Source: Pirellula staleyi DSM 6068 (GTDB lineage: Bacteria > Planctomycetota > Planctomycetia > Pirellulales > Pirellulaceae). From it: a stretch of DNA of 36,371 nt. The DNA is taken from NCBI GenBank assembly GCA_945900945.1, contig CAMDKL010000050.1, forward strand, positions 1 to 36,371. Reading direction: 5' to 3'. Of the stretch, positions 629 to 32,905 are shown one piece after another. Numbering within the stretch: the stretch's first letter is position 1; each line of letters starts with the position of its first letter. The translations under genes and the position numbers were made by a program. The notes below the pieces were generated by a model. That model was not told where the DNA came from, ran no database searches, and saw only the letters and a program-made list of their open reading frames with translations.

Positions 629-1852
629 ATGCTTTTTATCAAGAACTACTGTCGGTCATTACGTGATGCCGTTTTAACGCCGAAGGTCAGTTCTGCCAGG
701 CTTGACGCACTGTTTCGCCAATCGCAAATGAGTTTACCGGTGCCCGTTATCTGGTTGCTTGGCAAAGCCCAGTCGGGAAAGACCTCCATCGTTCGCGCGA
801 TTACAGGCAGCTCGAAGGGGGAGATTGGAAATGGCTTTCAACCTTGTACACGCACCGCCAGTCTTTACGCTTTTCCAGACGAAGCGACGTGCATGCTACG
901 CTTTCTTGATACACGAGGCCTGGGAGAAGCAGGATACGATCCGACCGAGGATTTGGCCTACTGTCAAGAACAGGCACATTTGGTTATGGTCGTAATCAAG
1001 GCGATGGACCACGCACAGAAGCCGATACTCACAGCACTCCGCGCGATCCGCAAAGCGCGACCCAACTGGTCGGTTATCGTTGTGCAGACTGCACTTCATG
1101 AAGGCTATAAGAACCCCAACGATTTGCATGTATTACCCTTTCCTTTTGATACAGAACCTTGGCCGGTAACCATTCCGACCGACTTGGCTCGTTCACTACA
1201 TCATCAGCGCAAGGAGTTTGCTGAATACGCGGACAGATTTATTGCCGTCGATTTGACCTTGCCCGAGGACGGCCTCACGCCTGCCGACTACGGGCTTGAG
1301 TCTCTGTGGACGTCGATTGAGGATGAGTTCCCGCGCGGACTACGTTCTATCCTGGAGGCGAAATCTGAGCTTCGGGCAGAGTTAGGCGATATTTACTATG
1401 CGGCTGCATGGCCTCATATCGTTTCTTACAGCTTGGCTGCTGGGGGAGCGGGAGCAGTACCTTGGCCACTCGTGGATATTCCCGTTGTCATTGCTATCCA
1501 GGCGAAAATGTTTCATGCTCTCTCTTCGATTTACGGACAGCCACTGACGTCACAATTGATGACAGAATTTGGTACCGCGGTGGGTAGTAGCATGCTGGCG
1601 AGAATGGTTCGTAGTATCCTCGCAAAGTTTGTACCCTTCTTCGGCAGTGCGTTTGGGGCCGCATACAATGCAGCCACAACCTATGCCCTCGGCTGTTCTT
1701 TGTGTTGGTACTTCGCTCAATTGCGTCGAGGTACTTCACCCGACTCCGCCAAGCTGCGTGAGTTTTATTCCAAGGAACTCGAAGAGGGCCGACGTCGTTT
1801 CGCTGACTATCTTAAAATCGGCCGCGAACCTACTTCTTCCTCACCTCACTAG
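629..1852 (+). CDS. GTPase with C-terminal DUF697-like membrane region
   Basis: 407 residues. The N-terminal half is a TRAFAC-type small GTPase domain: P-loop GKAQSGKTS at about 45-53, switch-II DTRG at 94-97. The usual NKxD specificity motif is not obvious; the strand where it should lie ends in VVQTALHEG (about 150), so nucleotide specificity is uncertain. The C-terminal part (about 255-375) is rich in Ala/Gly/Val hydrophobic segments and has a VDIPVVIAIQAKM...YGQPLTSQ stretch typical of DUF697 (YcjF-like) membrane regions. Such proteins are thought to work at the inner membrane, but their substrate is not known. The start at 629 lacks a strong ribosome site; Met-34 (728) would leave the P-loop intact and is possible. 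The next gene, another GTPase, starts 20 bases downstream, so the two are probably cotranscribed. The domain call is good; the cellular role is unknown. Confidence 0.8.
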   Translation: MLFIKNYCRSLRDAVLTPKVSSARLDALFRQSQMSLPVPVIWLLGKAQSGKTSIVRAITGSSKGEIGNGFQPCTRTASLYAFPDEATCMLRFLDTRGLGEAGYDPTEDLAYCQEQAHLVMVVIKAMDHAQKPILTALRAIRKARPNWSVIVVQTALHEGYKNPNDLHVLPFPFDTEPWPVTIPTDLARSLHHQRKEFAEYADRFIAVDLTLPEDGLTPADYGLESLWTSIEDEFPRGLRSILEAKSELRAELGDIYYAAAWPHIVSYSLAAGGAGAVPWPLVDIPVVIAIQAKMFHALSSIYGQPLTSQLMTEFGTAVGSSMLARMVRSILAKFVPFFGSAFGAAYNAATTYALGCSLCWYFAQLRRGTSPDSAKLREFYSKELEEGRRRFADYLKIGREPTSSSPH

Positions 1853-1872
1853 CAAAAGCAGCGGCCCATATA

Positions 1873-3486
1873 ATGCTCCGATGGAAACTTCGATTTGCTC
1901 TTGTCGCGATCCTCTGTTTGCTTCCTTATATCGTTCTCATGGGAGCAGGCTGTTTTTGGCTATACGAAAGGGAACTGCTGACTTGGTTCGCAGTGGCAGC
2001 CGCTGTCGTGTCGCTCATGGGATGGAACATCGATCGATTGTTCCGATTAAGAAAACTAGATAGTGTCCGAGTGCGAATCGAAACACTCGGTGCTACTGGC
2101 GAAGTTGATGCACGCGTCGCAGTTGAGGCACTCGCAATCAAAGTAGAAGCAAATCCGCCAGCGATAAACGATGCTGAGGCATGGAAACTGCTTGCGATCG
2201 AGCTCTTCGACACGGTCGCCGTGCGATTCGGTCGCACATCCGACAAACCGGCGCTTGAAATTACGGTACCTGACGCGATGTTCATCGCAGAACTCGTACT
2301 CCATGATTTGCGACTGGCTGCGAAAGAGAATATTCCCGGCTCCCATTTATTGACGATTCGCCAATTTGAACATTTGACACATTTTTGGAAAAGGACAGCG
2401 GCTCTGACCTCGAATGATAGTCCGTGGCGATTAGGCTATCGAATGATTCGGTTCGTAATGAATCCTGTCTCTGGTGTATTTAAAGAGGCAAACGACACTT
2501 TTATAGGGAAGCTGAGTGACGCGGCGTTGGAGGAGGCTAAAAGATGGGCGATTGGATACAGCCTACGTCGGGCAGGGGAATACGCCATTCAACTCTATAG
2601 CGGGCAACTTGCCATGCACGAGCCGGCCTTTCGAGATTTTCGATCACAACAATCGCAGTGGGATAGCGTCCTGGCAGACAGGACCACAGGCCGCCGCGCC
2701 GACGAGCCCTTGCGCATTATCGTTCTCGGGCAAACGAAGGCTGGCAAGTCCAGCTTGGTGAATGCCATGTTTGGAGAGTTACGGGCTGTGACAGATTCGT
2801 TGCCATGCACGACCGGTATTACCCCGTATGTACTTGATCGCGATGGGCTACCGAAAGCGATTGTCTTCGATACGGAAGGATTTGGCGGCAGTGAAGATCG
2901 TCTCGCAATTTCGCGACTTGATGAGGAACTTATCAAATGCGATTTGATCCTAATGGTTTGTTCAGCCACAACGGCAGCTCGAGCGCCGGATCTTCGATTG
3001 CTCGATGAGCTACGCCAACGGTTTGCAGTCAATCAACACCAGTCGCTACCGCCCATCCTGGTTGCATTGTCGCACATCGACAAACTGCGTCCCTTTGGCG
3101 AGTGGAACCCACCCTATGATTTGCGAGATAAAAACTCCATCAAGGCCTGCAACATAGCGTCAGCGTTGTCCGCTTTGGAATCGGATCTGTCTGTACCCAT
3201 CGAAAGGATTACGCCCGTCTGTTTGCGGAGCGATGCAGTCTACAATGTATCCGAGTCGCTGATTCCGCTCGTGCTGCAGGTTCTGCCAGATGCCGAACGC
3301 ACAATGCTGTTAAGGCTTTTGCGAGAATACCATGATGGGGAATATTGGAGCCAACTGCGCCGACAAGCCTACAACTCCGGGCGATTGTTGGTCAATGCAG
3401 CTATTCTTGCCGCTGCCCCTTGGGTTAAAGAGGCGCGGAAAATTGTGACAAGAAATGAATCCCGAAACGAAGAGAGTTCTGGCTAA
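1873..3486 (+). CDS. Membrane-anchored dynamin-like/MMR_HSR1 GTPase
   Basis: 537 residues. Two N-terminal transmembrane helices (about 8-31 and 37-55) are followed by about 220 mainly helical residues, then a GTPase domain. G1 is GQTKAGKS (286-293), the G2 threonine lies at TTGI (about 313), G3 is DTEGFGG (333-339) and G4 is SHIDKLR (400-406), a variant of NKxD also seen in YeeP/YfjP-like and dynamin-like bacterial GTPases. The architecture (membrane hairpin, helical spacer, GTPase) suggests membrane-tethered GTP hydrolysis, perhaps in membrane remodelling or protein assembly at the envelope. The gene follows the DUF697-type GTPase by 20 bases. Its last 32 bases overlap the next gene, which encodes a FliL-like flagellar protein. 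That overlap implies translational coupling and hints at a job linked to the flagellar basal body, though this is inference from position only. Confidence 0.8.
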   Translation: MLRWKLRFALVAILCLLPYIVLMGAGCFWLYERELLTWFAVAAAVVSLMGWNIDRLFRLRKLDSVRVRIETLGATGEVDARVAVEALAIKVEANPPAINDAEAWKLLAIELFDTVAVRFGRTSDKPALEITVPDAMFIAELVLHDLRLAAKENIPGSHLLTIRQFEHLTHFWKRTAALTSNDSPWRLGYRMIRFVMNPVSGVFKEANDTFIGKLSDAALEEAKRWAIGYSLRRAGEYAIQLYSGQLAMHEPAFRDFRSQQSQWDSVLADRTTGRRADEPLRIIVLGQTKAGKSSLVNAMFGELRAVTDSLPCTTGITPYVLDRDGLPKAIVFDTEGFGGSEDRLAISRLDEELIKCDLILMVCSATTAARAPDLRLLDELRQRFAVNQHQSLPPILVALSHIDKLRPFGEWNPPYDLRDKNSIKACNIASALSALESDLSVPIERITPVCLRSDAVYNVSESLIPLVLQVLPDAERTMLLRLLREYHDGEYWSQLRRQAYNSGRLLVNAAILAAAPWVKEARKIVTRNESRNEESSG

Positions 3487-4479: not shown

Positions 4480-5343
4480 ATGATCGATTGCATTTCCGCT
4501 CAAAACGCTATTTGCCGATTTTGCGTGGTCGTTTCTATTTTGATTCTTCAATCGATCCACTTGATTGGAATTGCAAATGCACAGTCGTCCTGGCCTCAGA
4601 CTCAGTCATCACCGAATGATCCGAGCCTAGTCCGGCAGTCCGGCGTCAGTATTCAACAGCCAGTACCACAAAACCAATCCATTGCTCCACCGAGCATTCA
4701 GTCCAACGGGCAACGCGTGTTCGCCCCGAGTCCTAACTCAAACCCTTTTCCAAGTAACGCATTTCCAAGTAACGCTGCTCCTGCAAGTACGGAATCCATG
4801 CGGTCCGAGGTACAGCCAGCAAGTTGGAAATCAGAGTCGCCACCAACGACGATTGCGAGTCCCGGTAAAGCTAAATCGCGAGCGCCGCTCGAACTAAAGC
4901 CTTCTTCCAAGGACAACTCACTCAGCCTGGAAAAACCCAAGAGTTCGTGGGGAGCGGCATTATCGATGTTCTTTTCCCTGGCTGTGGTTCTAAGTTTCTT
5001 TTTATTGGTTGCCTGGTTGGTGAGAAAATCTCAGCCACATTCGTTTTTGAAACTTCCAGGCGATGTCGTTCAAGTGATGGGGCGAACTCCAATGGCACCG
5101 CGCCAACAGATGTATGTGGTACGATTCGGCAGCAAATTACTCCTGATCAGTCACCAACCAGGACAAACGCAAACTCTGGGTGAGATTACAGATTCAGATG
5201 AGGTTCAGCGGCTCGCTGGCCTATGTGAAGCGAACCATCCTAACAGCATTTCCAATTCGTTTCGGGACGTACTAAAACAAGTAACATTAGGAAAATCCGA
5301 ACCTGAACCAAAGGCCGCGCTGCGATTGAGTCGCGGGCGGTAG
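4480..5343 (+). CDS. fliO: FliO-like flagellar export assembly protein with long N-terminal extension
   Basis: 287 residues, about twice the usual FliO length. Residues 1-34 look like a signal sequence (hydrophobic run, AxA-type end at IANA). Residues 35-150 form a Ser/Pro/Gln/Asn-rich linker, including a PSNAFPSNA duplication caused by a 15-base tandem repeat near 4748-4777. A transmembrane helix spans about 157-181 (FFSLAVVLSFFLLVAWL). The cytoplasmic FliO domain follows (about 184-250): LKLPGDVVQVMGRTPMAPRQQMYVVRFGSKLLLIS, split here only by eye, matches the FliO pattern. FliO assists assembly of the FliP ring in the flagellar type III export gate. fliP, fliQ and fliR, which usually follow, are absent; the strand switches 27 bases downstream. 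The signal peptide plus periplasmic linker is unusual compared with enterobacterial FliO but occurs in other phyla. Confidence 0.8.
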   Translation: MIDCISAQNAICRFCVVVSILILQSIHLIGIANAQSSWPQTQSSPNDPSLVRQSGVSIQQPVPQNQSIAPPSIQSNGQRVFAPSPNSNPFPSNAFPSNAAPASTESMRSEVQPASWKSESPPTTIASPGKAKSRAPLELKPSSKDNSLSLEKPKSSWGAALSMFFSLAVVLSFFLLVAWLVRKSQPHSFLKLPGDVVQVMGRTPMAPRQQMYVVRFGSKLLLISHQPGQTQTLGEITDSDEVQRLAGLCEANHPNSISNSFRDVLKQVTLGKSEPEPKAALRLSRGR

Positions 5344-8328: not shown

Positions 8329-8509
8329 TCCTGTGGTTGCTGAATTGGGACCGGCGGAAGGCCACGTTCCATTGGTGGTTGCATCCGTTCGGATTTACGC
8401 GAAAATACTGTCCCTCGAAAGAACCATTGACCAAACGTGTCAATCTCGGATGGGCTAATGAAGAACTCGGGTTCTCCTAGCATTCTTTTTTGGGTTACGA
8501 ACAGTGTAC

Positions 8510-8525: not shown

Positions 8526-11500
8526 ATGGCAACCACCAAAATTCCATTTCGTCAGCGACGTCCGCTTCTCGATCAGGCGCAAACCATCCAAGTTCATTAT
8601 CTTGGTTGGTCCGGTCCTATCCTTCACGCTGCCTGTGACTATTTGCAAAAGCAATATACTCGAGGCAATAAATGGGATATGGATCGGTGTTTGCTCGTCC
8701 TCCCTGGCGGATTCGCCGGTCGCCGACTGATGCAGCTGATGGCGACCCGGGCCAGCCAGCAATCGTTGATCCTTCGGCCGCCCGAGTTACTCACTATAGG
8801 AACCCTCCCGGAAAAGCTTTATTCTGCCAAATTTCCTTTCGCTAGCGACTTAGAACAAGTGCTCGCGTGGACCAAGGTCTTGCGAGCAGCCGACCACGAA
8901 CTTCTCAAACCGCTCCTATTCGAAGTACCTGATTTTGCCGAACTAAGACCTTGGATGGACTTGGCCCGCATTCTAAGTACACTCCATCGTGAACTAGCGT
9001 CCGATCTGGTCGATTTCGACGACGTGGTGAAAGAGCTCCAGGGTTCACCCGAAGAAGTCCGTTGGCAAGTTCTTTCGAAACTTCAGCGTGACTACCTGGA
9101 TGAACTTCATATCGCGGGCCTTTGGGATGTCCAGTCCGCTCGTCGATTTGTCATCGACAACAACGAAGTGAGGACTAACAACGAAATCATTTTGGTGGGG
9201 GCGGTCGATTTGAATCGCGCTCAGCGAAGATTTCTTTCGGCCGTATCCGATAGCGTGCGAGTTCTTGTTGGAGCTCCGGAATCCTATGCCGCTGGCTTCA
9301 ATCAAGACGGGACGTTAGCTTTAGAGTATTGGCAAGATATTGAGGTGGCGATCGATGAGGAGCAGTTGCACGTGCGATCGAGCGCTAACGACGCAGCAAA
9401 TGAACTTGCCACACAGCTAGCCAATCTCGGTAGCGACTTCTCAGTCCAAGAAGTCACCGTCGGGATTCCTGACCCACAAATCGTGCCAGCTCTACAAGAG
9501 ACACTGGCCCGTGCGGGTATCACGCTTCGGTATGGTCCTGGTACATCGGTCAGCCAGTCTCCGCCGATGCGGGTTGTTGAACTGATCGCTGACTATCTGA
9601 TCGATGGCACGATTGATGTTTTTAGCAGTCTTGTCCGTACGCCGGCCATTCACGATTGGCTGATTCGCTCTGGCGACGATGAGTCCGGGTCAAATCAACT
9701 ACCCCGCGACTTTTTGGTTCACTTGGATGAGTATCAGCAGTCGAGCCTTATTCGCAGTGTCAATGTCCCTGAATGGCCACAAGGAAAAGGGGAGGACATT
9801 TTTCAGGCGGTCCTAAAAAAACTTGACGAATGGCTGAAGCCGCTTCGAATGGTAAACACAAAATTGAGCATGTGGGCAGGCCCACTTCGACACGTTATCA
9901 AATCGTTATATGAAGGGGTGCACGTCGATCGCAACGATGTCGCGGGTAACCTATCGCTGCGAGCTTGCAGCGAGATCAACCAAGCGCTTTCGAAACTGGC
10001 TGAGCTTCCAACGAATCTCGATGCGCAAGTGACGTATCATGAAACATTGGCTTGGCTGCAGAGTCTGGTTGAAACGGTCAATGTACCGCCTCCGCAAGAC
10101 GAGTCCGCCGTCGAAATGCTCGGCTGGCTGGAACTGACGCTTGACGATACGCGTGTCCTGATGTTGACGGGCATGCACGACGGGATTGTGCCCGAGAGCG
10201 TCAATGGAGATGCGTTTCTCCCAAATCAACTTCGAACGGATCTCGGATTGATGGACAATGCTCGCCGCTACGCGCGAGATTGCTATGCCATGCTGGCGAT
10301 CCTCAATACGCGAGAACGTGTCGACCTGGTTCTCAATCATCTTAGTCTGGATGGCGATCCACAGACTCCAAGCCGATTGCTTTTAGCGGTTCCATCGGAT
10401 TTGCTTGCTCGACGTGTAAAGTTATTGCTTTCGCCACAGGAAACTGCCGACGATCAGCTCATTTCGGATACTTGGGTGCCTCGTGTTGGTCAAACCAACA
10501 TTCCGATCCCCATTCCGGACGCCAGCAAACGCGTTCGCGACATGGCGGTCACTGATTTTAAAAAGTACGATCAGTGCCCTTATCGTTTTTATCTGAATCG
10601 AGTCGAAAAAGTCCGAGCGTTCGAACATGATCGGTTGGAGCTAGATGGCGGAGGATTTGGCGATCTGTTGCATTTGTGTCTAGAGGGACTTATCGATTCA
10701 CCTGTGGCAGCCTCTACTGATGTGAAAGCGACTGCGGACTGGCTCACCAAGAACCTCAAGGCTATTGCCAGAAAGAAGTTTGGGGTGAAGCCAACGCCCG
10801 CGCTGCAGATCCAGCTCGAACAAGCGGTGCGTCGTCTCGAAGCGTTTGCTGAACTTCAAGCTGTCCAGATCGCAGAGGGTTGGCGAATCAAGACCATCGA
10901 ACACAAAGTCGAAAAATCGCATGGTATCACGCTCGACGTTGACGGTGAGTCAATGATTGTGCATGGTCGTATAGACCGAATCGATTATCATCCTCGGGAT
11001 GGTCGGTTTGCGGTGTGGGATTACAAAACCGGCGATCATGCTGGCAAACCAAAAGATGCCCACCTAAAACCGAACGGAACATGGACGGATTGGCAATTGC
11101 CACTTTATGGTCTGCTGATCCAAACGCTGAAAATCGAGGACTTATCGAAAGTCAGTTTCGGTTACATTCTGCTTCCCAAAAATCCTTCCGAGACGCAATT
11201 CATCATCGCTGACTTCAAGCCGGAGCAGCACGCCCAAGCCATCGAATCTGCCAAGGGGATTGCTCGCAAAGTGATGGCTGGCGAGTTCTGGCCACCTAAA
11301 TACAAAGGTATCTCGAATTTCAATGAAGCCAATGCGATCACGCAGTTCCCAGTCGTTCGACGTTGGGATCAAATGACGGCGAACAAAGAACTCGAATCCA
11401 AGCGTCAACTGGAATTGGCCGCTGCGATCCATCCTGTAGTTGATTTTCAAATCGATCATGGTTCGGAGACGGAAGCGACACCCTGCAAAAGCGATAGCAA

Positions 11501-14500
11501 GCTTCGATTGGATCGCTCGCATGCTGCACTCGATGCTGAGCGGCGCAAGAACGCCGAGCGACCACCGAATAAACTCCAATTGGAAAAGCATCTCGCAAAG
11601 GGACAAGCTGACAAGGATTGGTTCTCGCCTCAAATGATCTTGGCCTCGGCTGGGACCGGTAAGACTTACAATCTGGCTTCGCGAGCGCTGCGACTGCTTT
11701 TTACCGATCAGGAGCTAGACTCGATACTGGCCACCACATTTACTAGGAAGGCAGCCGGCGAGATCCTTCACCGAATACTTTCGTGGCTGGCAGATGCCGT
11801 TGAGAGCGAAGAGGGATTCGTTCGTTTGGTAGGCGTCCTCAAGCCGTTGGAAATCACACGCGACACGGTTCGCTATCAACTTGGTCGGCTATGTTCGCAT
11901 CTGCACCGATTTCGAGTCAGTACGCTCGACAGTTTTTACTCACAACTTGCTCGCTCCTTTGCCCTTGAGTTGAAATTGCCACCCGGCTGGATGCTGTCCG
12001 ATCCATTTCAATCCGATCAATTGCAGCAAGAAGCGATCAGTCGCATGTTTGACACGATGGACCAATCGGCGCTCAAGTCGCTGGTCTCGCAATTATCAAA
12101 GGGAGAAGCGACTCGCGGTATTCGGCGTGAAATCGAAAACGTCGTATCGACCGGTTACGATCTATTTCGAAAGACGTCCGAAGAGGCCTGGAATCAGCTC
12201 ACGGTGCCGAAGGGGCCGACAGCGGAGCAAGCCAACGAGTCCCTAATCGTATTTCGCGGATCGCAATTGGATCATAAAGGTTATGGGGCAGCTCGCGATA
12301 AAGCGGTTGCAAAATTCGAGTCGAGCGAATGGGGCGAGTTCCTCGGACTGACCTTGGTTCAAAACGCTTGCAATGACGTTGCGAAGTACTCCTCTAAGGA
12401 ATTGCCAGGCGAGACGATCAAGGCTCTGCTGACGTTGGCAAAGAAATCGGCGGTAGAGGAATTGGCGAGCCGCCGAGCACAGAACGAAGCGGCTTATCGC
12501 ATGTTGGCCAGCTACCATGAACAGCTCCAATGGGTAAAGTCGCGACGACGCATAGTCTCGTTTGATGACATTTCGGAGCGGCTCTCCAAGTGGATGCAAG
12601 AGACAGTTGTTGCCATGAAGGGTATTGCAACCCGTTTGGACTGCCCGATCGACCACTTGCTGCTCGACGAGTTTCAAGACACCTCTCCTATGCAATGGAA
12701 CATTATCAAACCGTTTGCTGAGGCGATCGTTGAGGGCTCGACCACGAACAAATCATTTTTTTGTGTTGGGGATAGCAAACAGGCGATCTACGGCTGGCGT
12801 GGTGGCGTCTCAGAGATCTTTGAATCGGTCGGCAAGCAGATTGATCATGTTCGACAAGAGAAATTGGTAAAGAGCTATCGCAGCTCGCCCATTGTGATCG
12901 ATTTTGTGAACTCCGTGTTCACACAACTTGCTAAGCACGATCGCTACTACAACGAGGACGAATCGGAAATCATCGCCAGCGATACGCAAGCGGTGACCGA
13001 CTGGATGGGCCGGTATTTTTCTAACCATGAAACCTCACGAGAAGGGTTGCCCGGTTACGTCGAGTTTCGTAACGCAGACTGCGAAAAGAACAAGGACCAA
13101 AACGGGGAGGAGAGCAGCTATGGACTGTTCGATGAAGTTGCTGACCGAATCGCCGACTTGCACCAAAAATCGCCACAAGCGGAAATCGGAGTTTTAACTC
13201 GGACCAATCGGGACGTTGGACGCATGATCGGATTGCTGCGAGAGCGCAAAGTCGATGCAAGTCAGGAAGGTGGCAATCCGCTGGTCGATTCGGCTCCCGT
13301 ATTGCTTCTATTGAGCGTCATGAAGTTAGCAAATCATCCATCCGACTCGTTGGCTTATTTTCATGTTAGGCATTCTCCTTTGATAGAGCGATTGCCAAGC
13401 GATGTTGCGGGCGAGCGTGTAACGCTATCCGCCTATCTTCGACAGCATCTTACCGATTTCGGATTTGGTAGGACCCTGGGATGTTTTGCGAATTTAATTG
13501 CGAACGAATGTACCGATCGAGATCAAGATCGACTCAAGCAGTTCGTTCAGTTGGGCTACCGGTTTGACGCGATGCGAAACCAACATATCCATGACTTCGT
13601 CGAGTACATCGAGCGACAAAAAGTGTCGGTTCCAGGTATAAGCAAGGTCCGGGTCATGACGATCCACCAATCGAAAGGGCTTGAGTTTGACGCTGTGTTT
13701 TTGCCGACGCTGGATCAAACCATTATTTCTCGGCCACCTACATTTGTTGCTATGTACGAGGATCGTACCAAGCCGCCGATCGGTGTCGTGCGATATATGA
13801 ATCGAGACCTTCAAAAGTACCTCGATGACTCGTGGCGGATCGCATTTCGGGAGTTTGCAAACCAGCAATTGTCGGAGGCCTTATGTGTTTTCTATGTGGC
13901 TCTGACTCGTGCACGACATGCTCTGTACTTATACACATCACCCTCCTCAAGCCCCAAGAAGCGATGGGGATCGGTATTGCATTCGATCTTCGCTGGTCCC
14001 GGGCAAAGCGAGCAAGCGGGGGTCGTGGTTCGGAGTTTTGGCAACGAAGATTGGTACGCATCACTCGAACCAACAGCGATCGATGCAACCGCAGAGGAAC
14101 GGGTTGGAAACCTTGACGGGCCGCGAGTTCGCACCATTGATTTGAAACGGGATGCAGCTTCCGTTCGACGAATTCCATGGCTTCGTCCTAGCCAAAGTTC
14201 TTTGCCGACCGTTGTCGATTTGGCTACCCAGTGGTCGGACGACAATCAATCGGGTTCTGTCATCGGCAAGCTAGTGCATCGCTGGTTTGAAGAAATTCGC
14301 GGCTGGATTGAGGATTATAAGCCGAACAAGAAGCGGCTTAAGGAAATCGCTGGCGCAACGTTGACGCAGGAAGAGATGGGACAGGTCAAGCTGAACGACT
14401 GGGTCGATCGTTTCGTTAAGTATTGCGAAATGCCTTCGGTGTTGCTGGCATTGAGTTCAGGTCGTTACATGCCTTGGCATCAACCGAGGATGCTTCATTT

Positions 14501-14807
14501 GGAGGTGACGAACGAACGGCGTTTATTGCAAATCGTTGACGGTCAGATGTTGAGTGGCGTAATTGATCGGTGCGTTTTGGGCTTTGATGGCGATCGCGTG
14601 GTTCGGGCTGAAATCTTAGATTTCAAGACGGATCGCAAACCCGAGTCGTTAACGGTTTCGGAATGGTCCAAAGAACGAGCGGATTTTCATGCTACTCAAT
14701 TGCGCTGCTATCGTCGCGTTTTGTCGGACCAGTTTGGACTCCATCCGAATAACATCCAGCTTACTTTACTATTGTTGAGTGAAGACATGCAAATCGAAGT
14801 TCAGTAA
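8526..14807 (+). CDS. addAB: Single-chain AddB-AddA helicase-nuclease (fusion)
   Basis: 2093 residues. The N-terminal part (1 to about 960) is AddB-like: an inactivated helicase region (PGGFAGRRL near 58; LTGMHDGIVP near 550, like the RecC/AddB GLNDGxxP block) and a PD-(D/E)XK nuclease with CPYRFYL (684-690), GRIDRID (about 814-820) and WDYKTGD (D832, K834). The C-terminal part (about 1030-2093) is AddA: Walker A ASAGTGKT (about 1040-1047), TTFTRKAAGE, Walker B LLLDEFQDTSP (about 1378), GDSKQAIYGWRGG (about 1415), KSYRSS, HQSKGLEFD (about 1713), YVALTRARH (about 1789) and a second nuclease with GVIDR (about 2010) and LDFKTD (2031-2036). AddAB resects double-strand breaks and loads RecA. Both nuclease and the AddA helicase sites look intact. 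The three C-terminal cysteines that with CPYRF form the AddB Fe-S cluster are absent. The order B then A matches the usual addB-addA operon, so the fusion probably arose by loss of the stop between them. Confidence 0.9.
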   Translation: MATTKIPFRQRRPLLDQAQTIQVHYLGWSGPILHAACDYLQKQYTRGNKWDMDRCLLVLPGGFAGRRLMQLMATRASQQSLILRPPELLTIGTLPEKLYSAKFPFASDLEQVLAWTKVLRAADHELLKPLLFEVPDFAELRPWMDLARILSTLHRELASDLVDFDDVVKELQGSPEEVRWQVLSKLQRDYLDELHIAGLWDVQSARRFVIDNNEVRTNNEIILVGAVDLNRAQRRFLSAVSDSVRVLVGAPESYAAGFNQDGTLALEYWQDIEVAIDEEQLHVRSSANDAANELATQLANLGSDFSVQEVTVGIPDPQIVPALQETLARAGITLRYGPGTSVSQSPPMRVVELIADYLIDGTIDVFSSLVRTPAIHDWLIRSGDDESGSNQLPRDFLVHLDEYQQSSLIRSVNVPEWPQGKGEDIFQAVLKKLDEWLKPLRMVNTKLSMWAGPLRHVIKSLYEGVHVDRNDVAGNLSLRACSEINQALSKLAELPTNLDAQVTYHETLAWLQSLVETVNVPPPQDESAVEMLGWLELTLDDTRVLMLTGMHDGIVPESVNGDAFLPNQLRTDLGLMDNARRYARDCYAMLAILNTRERVDLVLNHLSLDGDPQTPSRLLLAVPSDLLARRVKLLLSPQETADDQLISDTWVPRVGQTNIPIPIPDASKRVRDMAVTDFKKYDQCPYRFYLNRVEKVRAFEHDRLELDGGGFGDLLHLCLEGLIDSPVAASTDVKATADWLTKNLKAIARKKFGVKPTPALQIQLEQAVRRLEAFAELQAVQIAEGWRIKTIEHKVEKSHGITLDVDGESMIVHGRIDRIDYHPRDGRFAVWDYKTGDHAGKPKDAHLKPNGTWTDWQLPLYGLLIQTLKIEDLSKVSFGYILLPKNPSETQFIIADFKPEQHAQAIESAKGIARKVMAGEFWPPKYKGISNFNEANAITQFPVVRRWDQMTANKELESKRQLELAAAIHPVVDFQIDHGSETEATPCKSDSKLRLDRSHAALDAERRKNAERPPNKLQLEKHLAKGQADKDWFSPQMILASAGTGKTYNLASRALRLLFTDQELDSILATTFTRKAAGEILHRILSWLADAVESEEGFVRLVGVLKPLEITRDTVRYQLGRLCSHLHRFRVSTLDSFYSQLARSFALELKLPPGWMLSDPFQSDQLQQEAISRMFDTMDQSALKSLVSQLSKGEATRGIRREIENVVSTGYDLFRKTSEEAWNQLTVPKGPTAEQANESLIVFRGSQLDHKGYGAARDKAVAKFESSEWGEFLGLTLVQNACNDVAKYSSKELPGETIKALLTLAKKSAVEELASRRAQNEAAYRMLASYHEQLQWVKSRRRIVSFDDISERLSKWMQETVVAMKGIATRLDCPIDHLLLDEFQDTSPMQWNIIKPFAEAIVEGSTTNKSFFCVGDSKQAIYGWRGGVSEIFESVGKQIDHVRQEKLVKSYRSSPIVIDFVNSVFTQLAKHDRYYNEDESEIIASDTQAVTDWMGRYFSNHETSREGLPGYVEFRNADCEKNKDQNGEESSYGLFDEVADRIADLHQKSPQAEIGVLTRTNRDVGRMIGLLRERKVDASQEGGNPLVDSAPVLLLLSVMKLANHPSDSLAYFHVRHSPLIERLPSDVAGERVTLSAYLRQHLTDFGFGRTLGCFANLIANECTDRDQDRLKQFVQLGYRFDAMRNQHIHDFVEYIERQKVSVPGISKVRVMTIHQSKGLEFDAVFLPTLDQTIISRPPTFVAMYEDRTKPPIGVVRYMNRDLQKYLDDSWRIAFREFANQQLSEALCVFYVALTRARHALYLYTSPSSSPKKRWGSVLHSIFAGPGQSEQAGVVVRSFGNEDWYASLEPTAIDATAEERVGNLDGPRVRTIDLKRDAASVRRIPWLRPSQSSLPTVVDLATQWSDDNQSGSVIGKLVHRWFEEIRGWIEDYKPNKKRLKEIAGATLTQEEMGQVKLNDWVDRFVKYCEMPSVLLALSSGRYMPWHQPRMLHLEVTNERRLLQIVDGQMLSGVIDRCVLGFDGDRVVRAEILDFKTDRKPESLTVSEWSKERADFHATQLRCYRRVLSDQFGLHPNNIQLTLLLLSEDMQIEVQ

Positions 14808-29061: not shown

Positions 29062-30567
29062 TTAGCGAACAGGTATTTCATTGACTGTATAGAAGGCATT
29101 GCGATGCAACAACTCCTCACCGTCCTTGGAACGCAACTTGATGAGATCGATTTCATAAACATGTCCACGAGTCAGTTTGTCCAAGACGACGTTGGCCGTC
29201 ATCCCATCTTCCGCAAGTGTGACCGATTTCACGGTTGGCCTTGTTTGCTCAATCTCTGGTCCGCCATAGCCACCGTGATATGGATGTGTGAAGGTGGAGA
29301 TTGAATACAATTCGGGTATAGTTCCGGTTGCTTTGTCCACTGGCTTGGTGAAAGCAACTTTGAAACCATCCGGTTCAATCGTGACCCGATTGATTTCGAA
29401 TGGCATCTTGCCACTCCATTCAACACGTTCTAACGCGAACGATTTCATGCCGCGTACGGGCCAACCTCGATTCGTTCCGCCGCAGAGCAGATTCCCTTGA
29501 GGCGTGAATTCGACATTCAAAATTCCGGTCGAGAGCCCTTCACGAAAGGGATAGCACGCACCTTGCCATACACCATTGACTTGTTCCGTCGTGGCCCGCA
29601 TAAGAATAGAAAGCGTGTAATCGCCGAGAAACATCTGGTCTTCGAATGGTCCAAACTTTCCTTGCGTTCGATTGACGGTGAAGCCCGTGATGGAACGCCC
29701 CATGCGAATATACGGGAAAATTACGGCATAGGGCACTAGTTGCTTTAAGCGTTCTTTCTCGACAACTATGCGTGATCCCGATTTAGGATTTTCGGGAACC
29801 GGACCTAACTCGGGTGCATACTTGTACGAATTGAAACTTGCTGGATGGCCATGAAAGCTGCCTTGTGAAACAGCCTTTAAACTACACGAGCAATTCCAAG
29901 GCCCCTGGCTTTCAACATAAAATAACGCCCCATGTTCATCCATTCCGACACCTGCTGGGCTGCGCAATCCACTTGCAAATGCAGTCGTCTTTCCGTCAGG
30001 CGAAACTTTCAACACAAACCCGCGAAACAACGCGTGCGATTCGTACGATTGCGATAGACCGAGCGTAACAAAGAGATTTCCCACCGCGTCGAACTTTGAG
30101 CCGAATGCGTACTCATGATAGTTCGCGTAGCCCCAAGCATCGGAGATTGTCTCAAAGCGATCTGCCTTGCCTTTGTTTTTCGAATCGCTGACGCGTGTCA
30201 ATTCGCAACTTTGCGTAACGTAAAACGCTTTGTTCCTGTACGAGAGTCCAAAGATCTCATCGAGCCCTGTGGCAAATAATTCAAAGTTAGGATTCGGTTT
30301 CTTGTCATCGATTCCGTCGATCAAATAGATTTCACCATATCGCGTTCCGACCGCCACACGGTTATCGGGCAAAACAGTAAATACACCGGCCTCAATCACC
30401 GTATTTTTCGGAATGGGCAAGTTGACGATTGGATAATATTCTCGTTCACGCTCTTCGGTCCCCCAACGATGCCCTACCTCTTCAGCACGACAGAAGTTCA
30501 GGTCGAACAAAACGACCAAAAAAAGTAAACAAATACGACCAATTCGGTTATTAATTAAGTGGTTCAT
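29062..30567 (-). CDS. Secreted beta-propeller protein (PVC-type 'membrane-bound dehydrogenase' group)
   Basis: 501 residues with a signal peptide (about 9-28, ICLLFLVVLFDLNFC, ending CRA). The body is a repeat-rich six-bladed-propeller-like fold of the sugar-dehydrogenase type: VFTVLPDNRVAVGTRYGEIY (about 62-80), IFGLSYRNKAFYVTQ, FGSKFDAVGNLFVTLG (about 154-169), VLKVSPDGKTTAFASGLRSP AGVG (about 185-208) and MDEHGALFYVESQGPWN. The last 100 residues add a fibronectin/Big-like domain (VTIEPDGFKVAFTKPVDKATG). It is paired with the multihaem cytochrome gene, whose 3' end it overlaps by 17 bases; coupling suggests that the propeller oxidises a sugar-like substrate and passes electrons to the cytochrome, an inference common for this gene pair in planctomycetes. 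No PQQ-binding signature was verified. Confidence 0.75.
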   Translation of the reverse strand: MNHLINNRIGRICLLFLVVLFDLNFCRAEEVGHRWGTEEREREYYPIVNLPIPKNTVIEAGVFTVLPDNRVAVGTRYGEIYLIDGIDDKKPNPNFELFATGLDEIFGLSYRNKAFYVTQSCELTRVSDSKNKGKADRFETISDAWGYANYHEYAFGSKFDAVGNLFVTLGLSQSYESHALFRGFVLKVSPDGKTTAFASGLRSPAGVGMDEHGALFYVESQGPWNCSCSLKAVSQGSFHGHPASFNSYKYAPELGPVPENPKSGSRIVVEKERLKQLVPYAVIFPYIRMGRSITGFTVNRTQGKFGPFEDQMFLGDYTLSILMRATTEQVNGVWQGACYPFREGLSTGILNVEFTPQGNLLCGGTNRGWPVRGMKSFALERVEWSGKMPFEINRVTIEPDGFKVAFTKPVDKATGTIPELYSISTFTHPYHGGYGGPEIEQTRPTVKSVTLAEDGMTANVVLDKLTRGHVYEIDLIKLRSKDGEELLHRNAFYTVNEIPVR

Positions 30568-32905
30568 AGGTAAACGAGAGTGTCGATTTGCCTTGGGGAA
30601 TTTTTAGTTTTAGTAACAGTTCGGAGGACTCCGGATTGTCCGACAGAGTACGCAAAAAAGTTTCTGCGATAGGAATCGTCAATCGCAGTTTCGCGGTCTT
30701 GTAAACGGTATTGGACTCCGCTTCGATGCTGCCAGTAAGTGCCCGATACCAGATCGTCAGAGGTTTTGGCGAGTTGAACTGAAATGCACGTTGCAGCAGC
30801 AATTTTTCGTTGGACTTCACTGCAACCGAACGATCTTGAATTTCAATTGCACCGCTCTGGTACACAAACGTTGGGTTGGCAGCTTCGTCCATAAAGTACT
30901 CCTTGAACTGATAGCCGAGATTTTTGGGGTACAGGGGGTTCTGATTGTTTGGCACTTCTTTCGTCATGACTGGCCGCAATGGCCAAGGCGTTTTTTCATT
31001 GGAGAGTTCAAGGAACGAAACATCCTGTGATAATGCAATCGCTTGACCAGCTGGATTGAAACCGCCAGAGCCTTGTCCACCTCGATCCACTCGAATAAAT
31101 TCGCCTTGCCATATCGAAGTAAGTGTTCCCGTCTCTGCGTTGAAGGCATAGCTCAGCTTCTCCGGAAAACCAACCGCGATTCCCCGAAAACCAGCGACAC
31201 TACTGCGTCCTCGATACGTACGAGTTGTATCCGCGACGGACAATATCGTTTCGGTTCTGCGTATCCCAGGCGGATCTGCGGCCGAAGTCCCAAGGGAAAG
31301 ATAGTACCAGATCGCTTCGATTTGCATTTCCGTATCGCCGTCCAGAATGGTCTTATGAGCAGCCATACCATCTGGCCAAGAGTAAGGCATCACGATGCGT
31401 GGCCGATAGGCACCTGGATTACGAACGAAATTATTGAACCAACCAGGCTGAAGGCGTTGAAACGTCGTCATCATGTCCATTCCCTTATTGATCGGAGATG
31501 GTTTGCCGTTGAAATTGTGACACGCGATACAATTCAATCCTTTATCTCCAAGCAATTCGCGACCAGCCGTGCGCAGCAATTTCTCTCTCTCTTGCTCACT
31601 CTTCGATCTGCTCTCCGTGCTGGGGATTTTTAATTCGACGCTCTTCAAGACATCCAATTGACCTACTAGGTCTGGCAGATGACGAAGGTTTGCTTCGCCA
31701 TATTGTGGCATGCGAGTGGTCATGTAGGGCCGGACACTTTCACCATCGAACAACACCTTCTTCAACCAAACCGGCTGGAGCTTGGCACCAACTAATGTCA
31801 AGGGAGGCGGAATGCGACCGTCATCGCCGAGTGCTTTTTCGCCGGTCTTAAAAAAAGGGTTGCGGTCCTCGGGAACACCTCCAAAATCGTCGCGAATATG
31901 ACACGCAATGCAATTGAACGCGGTCAGTGTCTTCGCGATCTTTACTTTATCCGAGTCAACTTGTTTCTCTTTTTGTAATGCTGCGACAATCGCTTGGACC
32001 TGAGTGTCATCGAGAGCAAATTGGGGGCTTTTATCGAGTGTTTCTGACAAGCAGCCGCGAGTAAGGTCCGCTGTCCTCAAAGAACCCAGAGGTGCGGCCG
32101 CAGGAATATCACCCAGTTTATGACAAGCTGCGCAGTTCATCTCCTGAAAATACTTCCGACCCAATGTTATCAGTTGTTCTTGTGGCTGAAGGGATTGGCT
32201 TTTCAAATGCTGTTCGCTCAATAGATAACCTGCAATGGCTTGCGACTCCACTGGCGTCAACTTCATGTCCGGCATCCGTCCCGAACTTCGCACCCGCAGC
32301 GGCTGAAACAAGAAATCGCTGAGCGATTTATGACTATACTTGGTCGTGAGATGCCCTAGGTCGACGCCTACGACTTTGACGATTTCTTTTTCATCCTCGT
32401 CAACGGTATCTTCCCTGTTCATCGCTTCGCGTGGATTATGGCATGCAACACAACCTACGGAATGAAAAAGCTCTTTACCAACGTTGACATCCGGATTCTC
32501 GAATCCGCTTGAATCAAATTGTTTTGTCGATTGAGCCACCAGGAAATGCGTCAGCGCCTCGGTGATCTCGTCACGCATGCTCTCCGATTCCAAAGCCAAA
32601 AGGTCTGGCATCGTTGTCCCCAAGTGCATTGATGAAGGAGACGCAAGGAATCGCCGTAGATACTCTGGGGCAATCCTGGAACCTACGTCGGACAAGTCCG
32701 GGGCAGATCGTTCGAGCAATGGCTGCTGCTCGTTATTGCTGTGACATGCCGCACAACGTAGTTCTTGTATTAGTAACTCACCGACCTGAGACTGCGTTAG
32801 AGGATGCTTGTTGGCAAGCCCAACAATCACAGTCGAGGCCGAGGCACTTCCTGCCATCAAAACCATGATCCACATTGACCAAACGATTGAACCAATTTTT
32901 GTCAC
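30551..32905 (-). CDS. Exported multihaem c-type cytochrome (five CXXCH)
   Basis: 784 residues; signal peptide (about 1-24, ending SASA). Five haem c motifs: CAACH (51-55), CVACH (152-156), CAACH (258-262), CIACH (332-336) and CIACH (459-463). Each of several has a downstream Met ligand candidate in a MPDL/MPDM/MPQY context (about 99, 211 and 399), typical of class-I cytochrome domains strung in a row. The last 230 residues have no haem motif and resemble a beta-rich, possibly sugar-binding or C-terminal planctomycete domain. The protein is likely periplasmic and accepts electrons from the coupled propeller. First gene of the operon; a 203-base spacer upstream holds its promoter. The next gene overlaps its end by 17 bases. 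Confidence 0.9.
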   Translation of the reverse strand: MTKIGSIVWSMWIMVLMAGSASASTVIVGLANKHPLTQSQVGELLIQELRCAACHSNNEQQPLLERSAPDLSDVGSRIAPEYLRRFLASPSSMHLGTTMPDLLALESESMRDEITEALTHFLVAQSTKQFDSSGFENPDVNVGKELFHSVGCVACHNPREAMNREDTVDEDEKEIVKVVGVDLGHLTTKYSHKSLSDFLFQPLRVRSSGRMPDMKLTPVESQAIAGYLLSEQHLKSQSLQPQEQLITLGRKYFQEMNCAACHKLGDIPAAAPLGSLRTADLTRGCLSETLDKSPQFALDDTQVQAIVAALQKEKQVDSDKVKIAKTLTAFNCIACHIRDDFGGVPEDRNPFFKTGEKALGDDGRIPPPLTLVGAKLQPVWLKKVLFDGESVRPYMTTRMPQYGEANLRHLPDLVGQLDVLKSVELKIPSTESRSKSEQEREKLLRTAGRELLGDKGLNCIACHNFNGKPSPINKGMDMMTTFQRLQPGWFNNFVRNPGAYRPRIVMPYSWPDGMAAHKTILDGDTEMQIEAIWYYLSLGTSAADPPGIRRTETILSVADTTRTYRGRSSVAGFRGIAVGFPEKLSYAFNAETGTLTSIWQGEFIRVDRGGQGSGGFNPAGQAIALSQDVSFLELSNEKTPWPLRPVMTKEVPNNQNPLYPKNLGYQFKEYFMDEAANPTFVYQSGAIEIQDRSVAVKSNEKLLLQRAFQFNSPKPLTIWYRALTGSIEAESNTVYKTAKLRLTIPIAETFLRTLSDNPESSELLLKLKIPQGKSTLSFTYEPLN

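Follow-up and report, generated by a model that had tools for sequence, protein, structure and literature searches.

In the bacterium Pirellula staleyi DSM 6068 (Planctomycetota; Pirellulaceae), the genes addB and addA, whose products are normally two proteins, are joined into a single gene on contig CAMDKL010000050.1 of assembly GCA_945900945.1. Positions 1 to 36,371 of the forward strand of this contig were analyzed and are referred to here as the window. As the initial annotation of the window had proposed, AddB and then AddA are encoded in one uninterrupted frame (8526–14807, plus strand) of 2093 codons without a stop; the open reading frame list extends the same frame to a TTG at 8490, which would give 2105 residues. 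The kind of enzyme, AddAB, is known, and what is new is the one-chain form of an enzyme that is treated as a two-subunit complex in passages of PMC6452273, PMC1193525, and PMC4824097. Since only one frame is present, the window protein is a variant rather than an ordinary member of AddAB. We assign a probability of roughly 0.86 to the interpretation that it is a natural single-chain AddAB with the order AddB–linker–AddA that does the work of the heterodimer, folds as a pseudo-heterodimer, and was fused more likely twice than once.

The first half of the protein combines a helicase-like fold with a PD-(D/E)XK nuclease, as does AddB. The Walker A pattern G-x4-GK[ST] is absent from residues 1–930, and the nuclease motifs are intact (GDLLH at 712–716, GRIDRID at 814–820, DYK at 832–834, and QLPLY at 857–861), in line with the earlier description of an AddB-like inactive helicase. 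In the AddB alignment, fused and unfused sequences alike keep residues H716, D817, D832, K834, Q857, and Y861 (48 of 48). Pfam places PDDEXK_1 (674–923), UvrD-helicase (1034–1438), and UvrD_C (1668–1804) in the whole protein. A model of residues 1–1190, built from a 48-row alignment, has a mean predicted local distance difference test score (pLDDT) of 81.5, and in a Foldseek search of the PDB its ranks 1–5 are all taken by chain B of B. subtilis AddAB (E values between 3.6e-24 and 2.1e-22).

The AddB of Bacillus subtilis contains a four-cysteine iron-sulfur cluster, which is present in a subset of AddBs, and a 2009 study by Cromie in J. Bacteriol. is said to have found the Walker A motif and the iron-sulfur cysteines restricted to AddB subsets. 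Within residues 600–959, cysteine occupies more than 30% of rows in columns 684 (46/48) and 939 (32/48) only, and column 939 is a threonine in the window protein. With only two well-kept cysteine columns, a four-cysteine iron-sulfur cluster appears unlikely in this AddB half.

The second half contains superfamily 1A (SF1A) helicase motifs I–VI and a C-terminal PD-(D/E)XK nuclease, as does AddA. The helicase motifs are ASAGTGKT (1040–1047), LLDEFQDT (1379–1386), VGDSKQAIYGWRGG (1414–1427), MTIHQSKGLEFD (1711–1722), and YVALTRARH (1790–1798), and the intact nuclease motifs are GKLVH (1914–1918), IDR (2013–2015), DFK (2032–2034), and QLRCY (2058–2062). The full UvrD-type AddA helicase of the initial annotation is thus present, and the motif positions given there for both halves are correct. 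When this half is scanned by itself, Pfam also detects the C-terminal PDDEXK_1 domain (E = 6e-8). The model of residues 1000–2093 has a mean pLDDT of 84.6, with AddAB chain A at Foldseek ranks 1–4 followed by RecB. In NCBIfam, AddA/RecB-like models match this half, and the best matches are of the proteobacterial type for both AddB (addB_alphas, TIGR02786; residues 427–876, E = 8.5e-25) and AddA (addA_alphas, TIGR02784; E = 1.7e-59), from which the window protein differs in being fused and in scoring far under the equivalog cut-offs (87 bits versus 486.5 and 202 bits versus 860.75, respectively).

The window protein shares with B. subtilis AddAB (PDB 3u44, 3u4q, 4ceh, 4cei, 4cej) the fold of its halves, the helicase motifs, two PD-(D/E)XK nucleases, and a pseudo-helicase AddB, but it is one chain rather than two, its AddB half has no Walker A motif, and the aligned AddBs show only two well-kept cysteine columns, one of which is threonine in the window protein. 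Chains of RecB, RecC, and AdnA/AdnB are among the next Foldseek matches of the two halves. Unlike in RecBCD, no RecC was found in the window genome (0 matches to PF04257, with a control that matched only Escherichia coli of 14 and without a search for RecD). Both motor subunits of AdnAB carry Walker A, in contrast to the AddB half described here; a general search of the genome with the whole protein, made without a dedicated AdnAB model, returned only partial UvrD-type matches besides the fused gene. In separate planctomycete addB-addA pairs, such as those of loci L124 and L113, the gene order is the same in the loci read and identity is roughly 31–39% per half, but the genes occupy separate frames. 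In most unfused relatives read, addB precedes addA with an overlap or a gap of a few tens of bases.

The distribution of the fusion was followed through genus, family, and phylum. Since the long frames of two genomes, G462 and G517, proved to be separate genes, frame lengths listed by a search were accepted as fusions only after the DNA had been read, and cases without such a reading are marked as judged from frame length alone. Of the 27 genomes searched in the genus of the window genome (g1, own genome included), 26 cover the junction and all 26 are fused; in G409, the contig ends before the junction. No stop or frameshift of the kind against which the initial annotation had cautioned is therefore found at the junction in this genus. 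The 25 other fused g1 proteins are roughly 50–86% identical to the window protein. One frame of more than 2100 codons was confirmed by reading the DNA in 17 of the 27 genomes (for G413, G417, and G407 on matching named contigs, and for G407 also on L123), and in the other nine fused genomes the frame is broken inside the AddA part (G394) or stops at or near a contig end. Both genomes of g321 are fused. In g288, the AddB nuclease is matched in 12 of 15 genomes, each time in a frame of 1386–2139 codons; 11 of these were read directly as fused and G596 was judged from frame length alone, and three drafts of 73–84% completeness gave no AddB nuclease match. In total, 39 genomes from three genera, among them the single-contig genomes G392 and G557, were read as fused at the junction, and 13 of the 39 lie outside g1.

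In a family sample of 159 genomes, the AddB nuclease is found in 149. Among the matches listed, which cover 148 of these, 17 genomes are fused, comprising 8/8 of g1, 2/2 of g321, and 7/7 of g288, and the longest frame in the 131 others is 1291 codons, although not every junction is seen because some of these frames end at contig ends. The genome outside the matches listed, G494, has a stop ahead of an addA frame of 1110 codons (L078). Unfused genomes come from 62 genera besides these. Within the family sample, the list of genomes with the same fusion, which the initial annotation had called for, comprises g1, g321, and g288 only. A phylum sample of 294 genomes yields AddB matches in 69; for 54 of these, E is below 1e-20, and within that set a frame of more than 1272 codons occurs only in the window genome. 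A further phylum search of 392 genomes found addB and addA separate, among the matches listed, in all but the window genome. A scan of named genomes yielded 11 loci, all titled as metagenome-assembled (eight Pirellula and three with other planctomycete names). Plasmid records, searched without the chromosomes of other phyla, include 262 that match, and in none of them does a single location span 80% of the query. Among the literature matches listed, a set that most subscription journals lie outside, no natural AddA–AddB fusion is described.

Three candidate fusions were rejected on reading the DNA. The listed frames of G462 (g312; 2058) and G517 (g293; 2005) resolve into separate genes, which in G462 share a frame and are divided by one TGA, and the 1980-residue frame of G329 belongs to addA, which lies in a different frame from addB. 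Among the weak AddB-like matches of the 294-genome sample, one in a distant planctomycete lies in a longer frame of 1337 codons (G084:C2:240202-240909, E = 5e-4). The addA and addB matches lie far apart in the single-contig genome G167 (C1, 1.84 and 2.10 Mb), and each has a contig of its own in the drafts G513, G472, G432, G480, G460, and G510.

The fusion probably arose when neighboring addB and addA genes lost the boundary that had kept them apart, and G462 (L090), in which only one TGA separates them, is one step from this state. Mapping the fusion on planctomycete trees, as had been suggested, reveals two fused groups separated by one unfused genome, G440. In trees of the joined halves, fused g1 and g321 adjoin G440 and fused g288 falls outside (Shimodaira–Hasegawa-like approximate likelihood ratio test, SH-aLRT, 96 and 97). 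Approximately unbiased (AU) tests disfavor a single fused clade (p = 0.012 and 0.011), although these trees are quick searches and the p values are somewhat optimistic, as the tested group was chosen after an earlier tree had been seen. The linkers differ as well: those of g1 and g321 have 61–117 residues (15 of 15 aligned), those of g288 have 51–56 (10 of 10), and no likeness between the two sets is obvious in the alignment. One fusion in the ancestor of the three genera, followed by a split in lineage g290, is a less probable but still tenable history, given that G440 is the single genome separating the groups, is the sole genome of its genus, and sits on a long branch (0.94 and 1.15 in the two trees). 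No linker remnant is seen in G440, where AddB stops six residues past the shared ICQ motif and the AddA frame starts about 13 residues ahead of the aligned part. Together, the tree placement and the differing linkers make two fusions within this planctomycete family more probable than a single fusion that was later split.

By analogy with the two-subunit enzyme, the single chain would load on double-strand ends, where the AddA motor would unwind the DNA and the AddB pseudo-helicase would scan the 3′ strand. PMC4824097 assigns the 3′ strand, until chi, to the AddA nuclease of B. subtilis AddAB, and degradation of the 5′ strand to the AddB nuclease. With both nuclease sites intact, the single chain should treat the strands alike, the AddA nuclease trimming the 3′ strand and the AddB nuclease the 5′ strand to leave a 3′ tail for RecA. 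The halves would pack like separate AddA and AddB, with a flexible linker joining the AddB nuclease to the AddA motor. The open frame, the fold and motifs of each half, the single copy, and the distribution are shown directly, whereas we infer the intact chain, its assembly in cis, both nuclease activities, the strand assignment, and the chi response. Of the earlier claim that both nucleases look active, the intact motifs stand; activity is read from those motifs, and the AddA nuclease is absent from one fused relative, G438. The predicted alteration of chi handling is not supported, as there is no sign that chi control is altered, nor that it is lost. Residue R570, which matches the latch residue R629 of B. 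subtilis AddB (PMC4824097) by spacing only, is kept in 47 of 48 fused and unfused sequences, but the profile alignment around it is very weak (anchor of 1.4 bits), and its conservation therefore says little either way on chi.

In the AlphaFold model, pLDDT is low over residues 921–1000 (block means 37–67), and helices are modeled at 949–968 and 990–1010. The ratio of nonsynonymous to synonymous differences per site (pN/pS) is 0.30–0.41 in the linker for five pairs, versus 0.05–0.20 in the halves; these ratios are rough because synonymous sites are near saturation in four pairs (pS = 0.52–0.88). Judged by these values, the linker is evolving faster than either half, yet under coding constraint.

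Several observations weigh against reading the gene as a single-chain AddAB. All 19 listed NCBIfam models score under their cut-offs, and the template modeling (TM) scores to AddAB chains are moderate (0.46–0.56 by query length) with large root-mean-square deviations. A calcineurin-like, SbcD-like phosphoesterase gene overlaps the end of addA in both fused L109 and unfused L124 (one relative of each kind tested), which speaks for the reading, but the window gene is followed by an FGGY carbohydrate kinase gene on the opposite strand and this neighbor is missing. Among fused relatives, the congener G394 (L055) has a frame break within the AddA part, and G516 (L106:4955-8293) has the Walker A sequence ASAGTGTT, a Lys-to-Thr change that points either to an inactive motor or to an error in the sequence. 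In addition, an in-frame ATG at residue 1037, just ahead of Walker A, is conserved in every g1 and g321 sequence aligned (15 of 15).

This ATG, together with a linker that is variable and partly modeled at low confidence, could point to a precursor that is cleaved or to internal initiation, with an ordinary two-chain AddAB as the working enzyme. We regard this as improbable. No Shine-Dalgarno-like match precedes the ATG in the bases checked, and since it lies three codons before Walker A, its product would be without the segment upstream of motif I; each of the other start-codon columns in the linker is common to at most 6 of 25 sequences, and the junction frame is open in 39 genomes. For a single-chain AddAB, the fixed 1:1 ratio of AddA to AddB that had been anticipated follows, provided that the chain is neither cleaved nor internally started.

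The window genome (6.47 Mb in 313 contigs; completeness 99.96, contamination 1.97) was searched with the whole protein, and only the fused copy and three partial UvrD-type matches were found. The separate addA and addB genes that the initial annotation had raised as a counterindication are thus not found by this search, and because the same query detects a second, diverged AddAB pair in the congeners G401 and G415, a comparable copy would have been seen. These second pairs are adjacent addB-addA-like genes that occur alongside the fused gene (L151:941-7542 in G401 and L150:1074-7681 in G415), and that of L150 resembles the Gram-positive type (TIGR02773, TIGR02785). PADLOC matches to GajB-type UvrD helicases raise the idea of a defense helicase-nuclease that merely resembles AddAB, which is very improbable, as the listed matches fall within the helicase half, do likewise for the AddA-like protein of L150, and concern a gene that is conserved throughout the genus and has the addB-addA pair as its counterpart in relatives; no other AddAB was found in the genome. 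A sequencing or assembly error joining two ordinary genes can be rejected even for a draft of 313 contigs, because the junction is open in independent genomes (26/26 covering genomes of g1, two further genera, and the single-contig G392 and G557).

Six of the 48 AddA sequences aligned (L091, L093, L100, L101, L116, and L140) terminate past the helicase and have no C-terminal nuclease. A nuclease-domain hidden Markov model (HMM) gave no match in frames of at least 50 codons from these six loci and L142; its positive controls were two nuclease-bearing loci that both match and both contributed to the HMM. Pfam, run on three of these six, likewise reports no nuclease, and it does detect one in unfused L113. 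Five of the nuclease-less AddAs come from unfused genes and cluster with one another in two trees (g293 twice, g301, g307, and g328). The sixth, that of G438 (L091), belongs to a fused gene of 1850 codons from g288, in whose product the AddB nuclease motifs GRIDR, DYK, and QLPLY are present. The loss in fused G438 and in a separate unfused group suggests at least two origins of an AddAB whose only nuclease is that of the AddB half. Chances seem about even that two lineages independently made an obligate single-chain resection machine and that one-nuclease AddABs, one of them single-chain, process the strands unequally. In another fused protein, that of G541 (L111), the AddA nuclease motif is EFK in place of D(F/Y)K.

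If the single-chain reading is correct, the enzyme would lend itself readily to single-molecule experiments, being made from one gene at a fixed stoichiometry without exchange of subunits, and it would reveal whether subunit dissociation plays any part in the reaction cycle or after chi. Relatives that are fused, unfused, a single stop away from fusion, or nuclease-less form a natural mutant series for asking which nuclease is needed for resection.

Table 1. Coordinates of the fused gene and its parts in the window
Feature	Position	Strand	Remarks
Fused addB-addA gene	8526..14807	+	ATG to TAA, 2093 residues, stop-free; AGAGGTGA 5′ of the ATG at 8526
AddB half, residues 1–925	8526..11300	+	SF1-like helicase fold lacking Walker A, followed by PD-(D/E)XK nuclease
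AddB nuclease domain PDDEXK_1, residues 674–923	10545..11294	+	H716, D817, D832, K834, Q857, Y861
Linker, approximately residues 939–1036, 97 residues	11340..11633	+	Low pLDDT; pN/pS above both halves
AddA half, residues 1040–2093	11643..14804	+	SF1A helicase motifs I–VI and C-terminal nuclease
AddA nuclease domain PDDEXK_1, residues 1905–2084	14238..14777	+	DFK at 2032–2034

Elsewhere in the window, two adjacent GTPase-domain genes lie at 629–3486, the first with DUF697, and a FliO-like gene lies at 4480–5343. On the minus strand, positions 30551–32905 encode a 784-residue protein with several cytochrome c matches, of which no single stretch passes alone.

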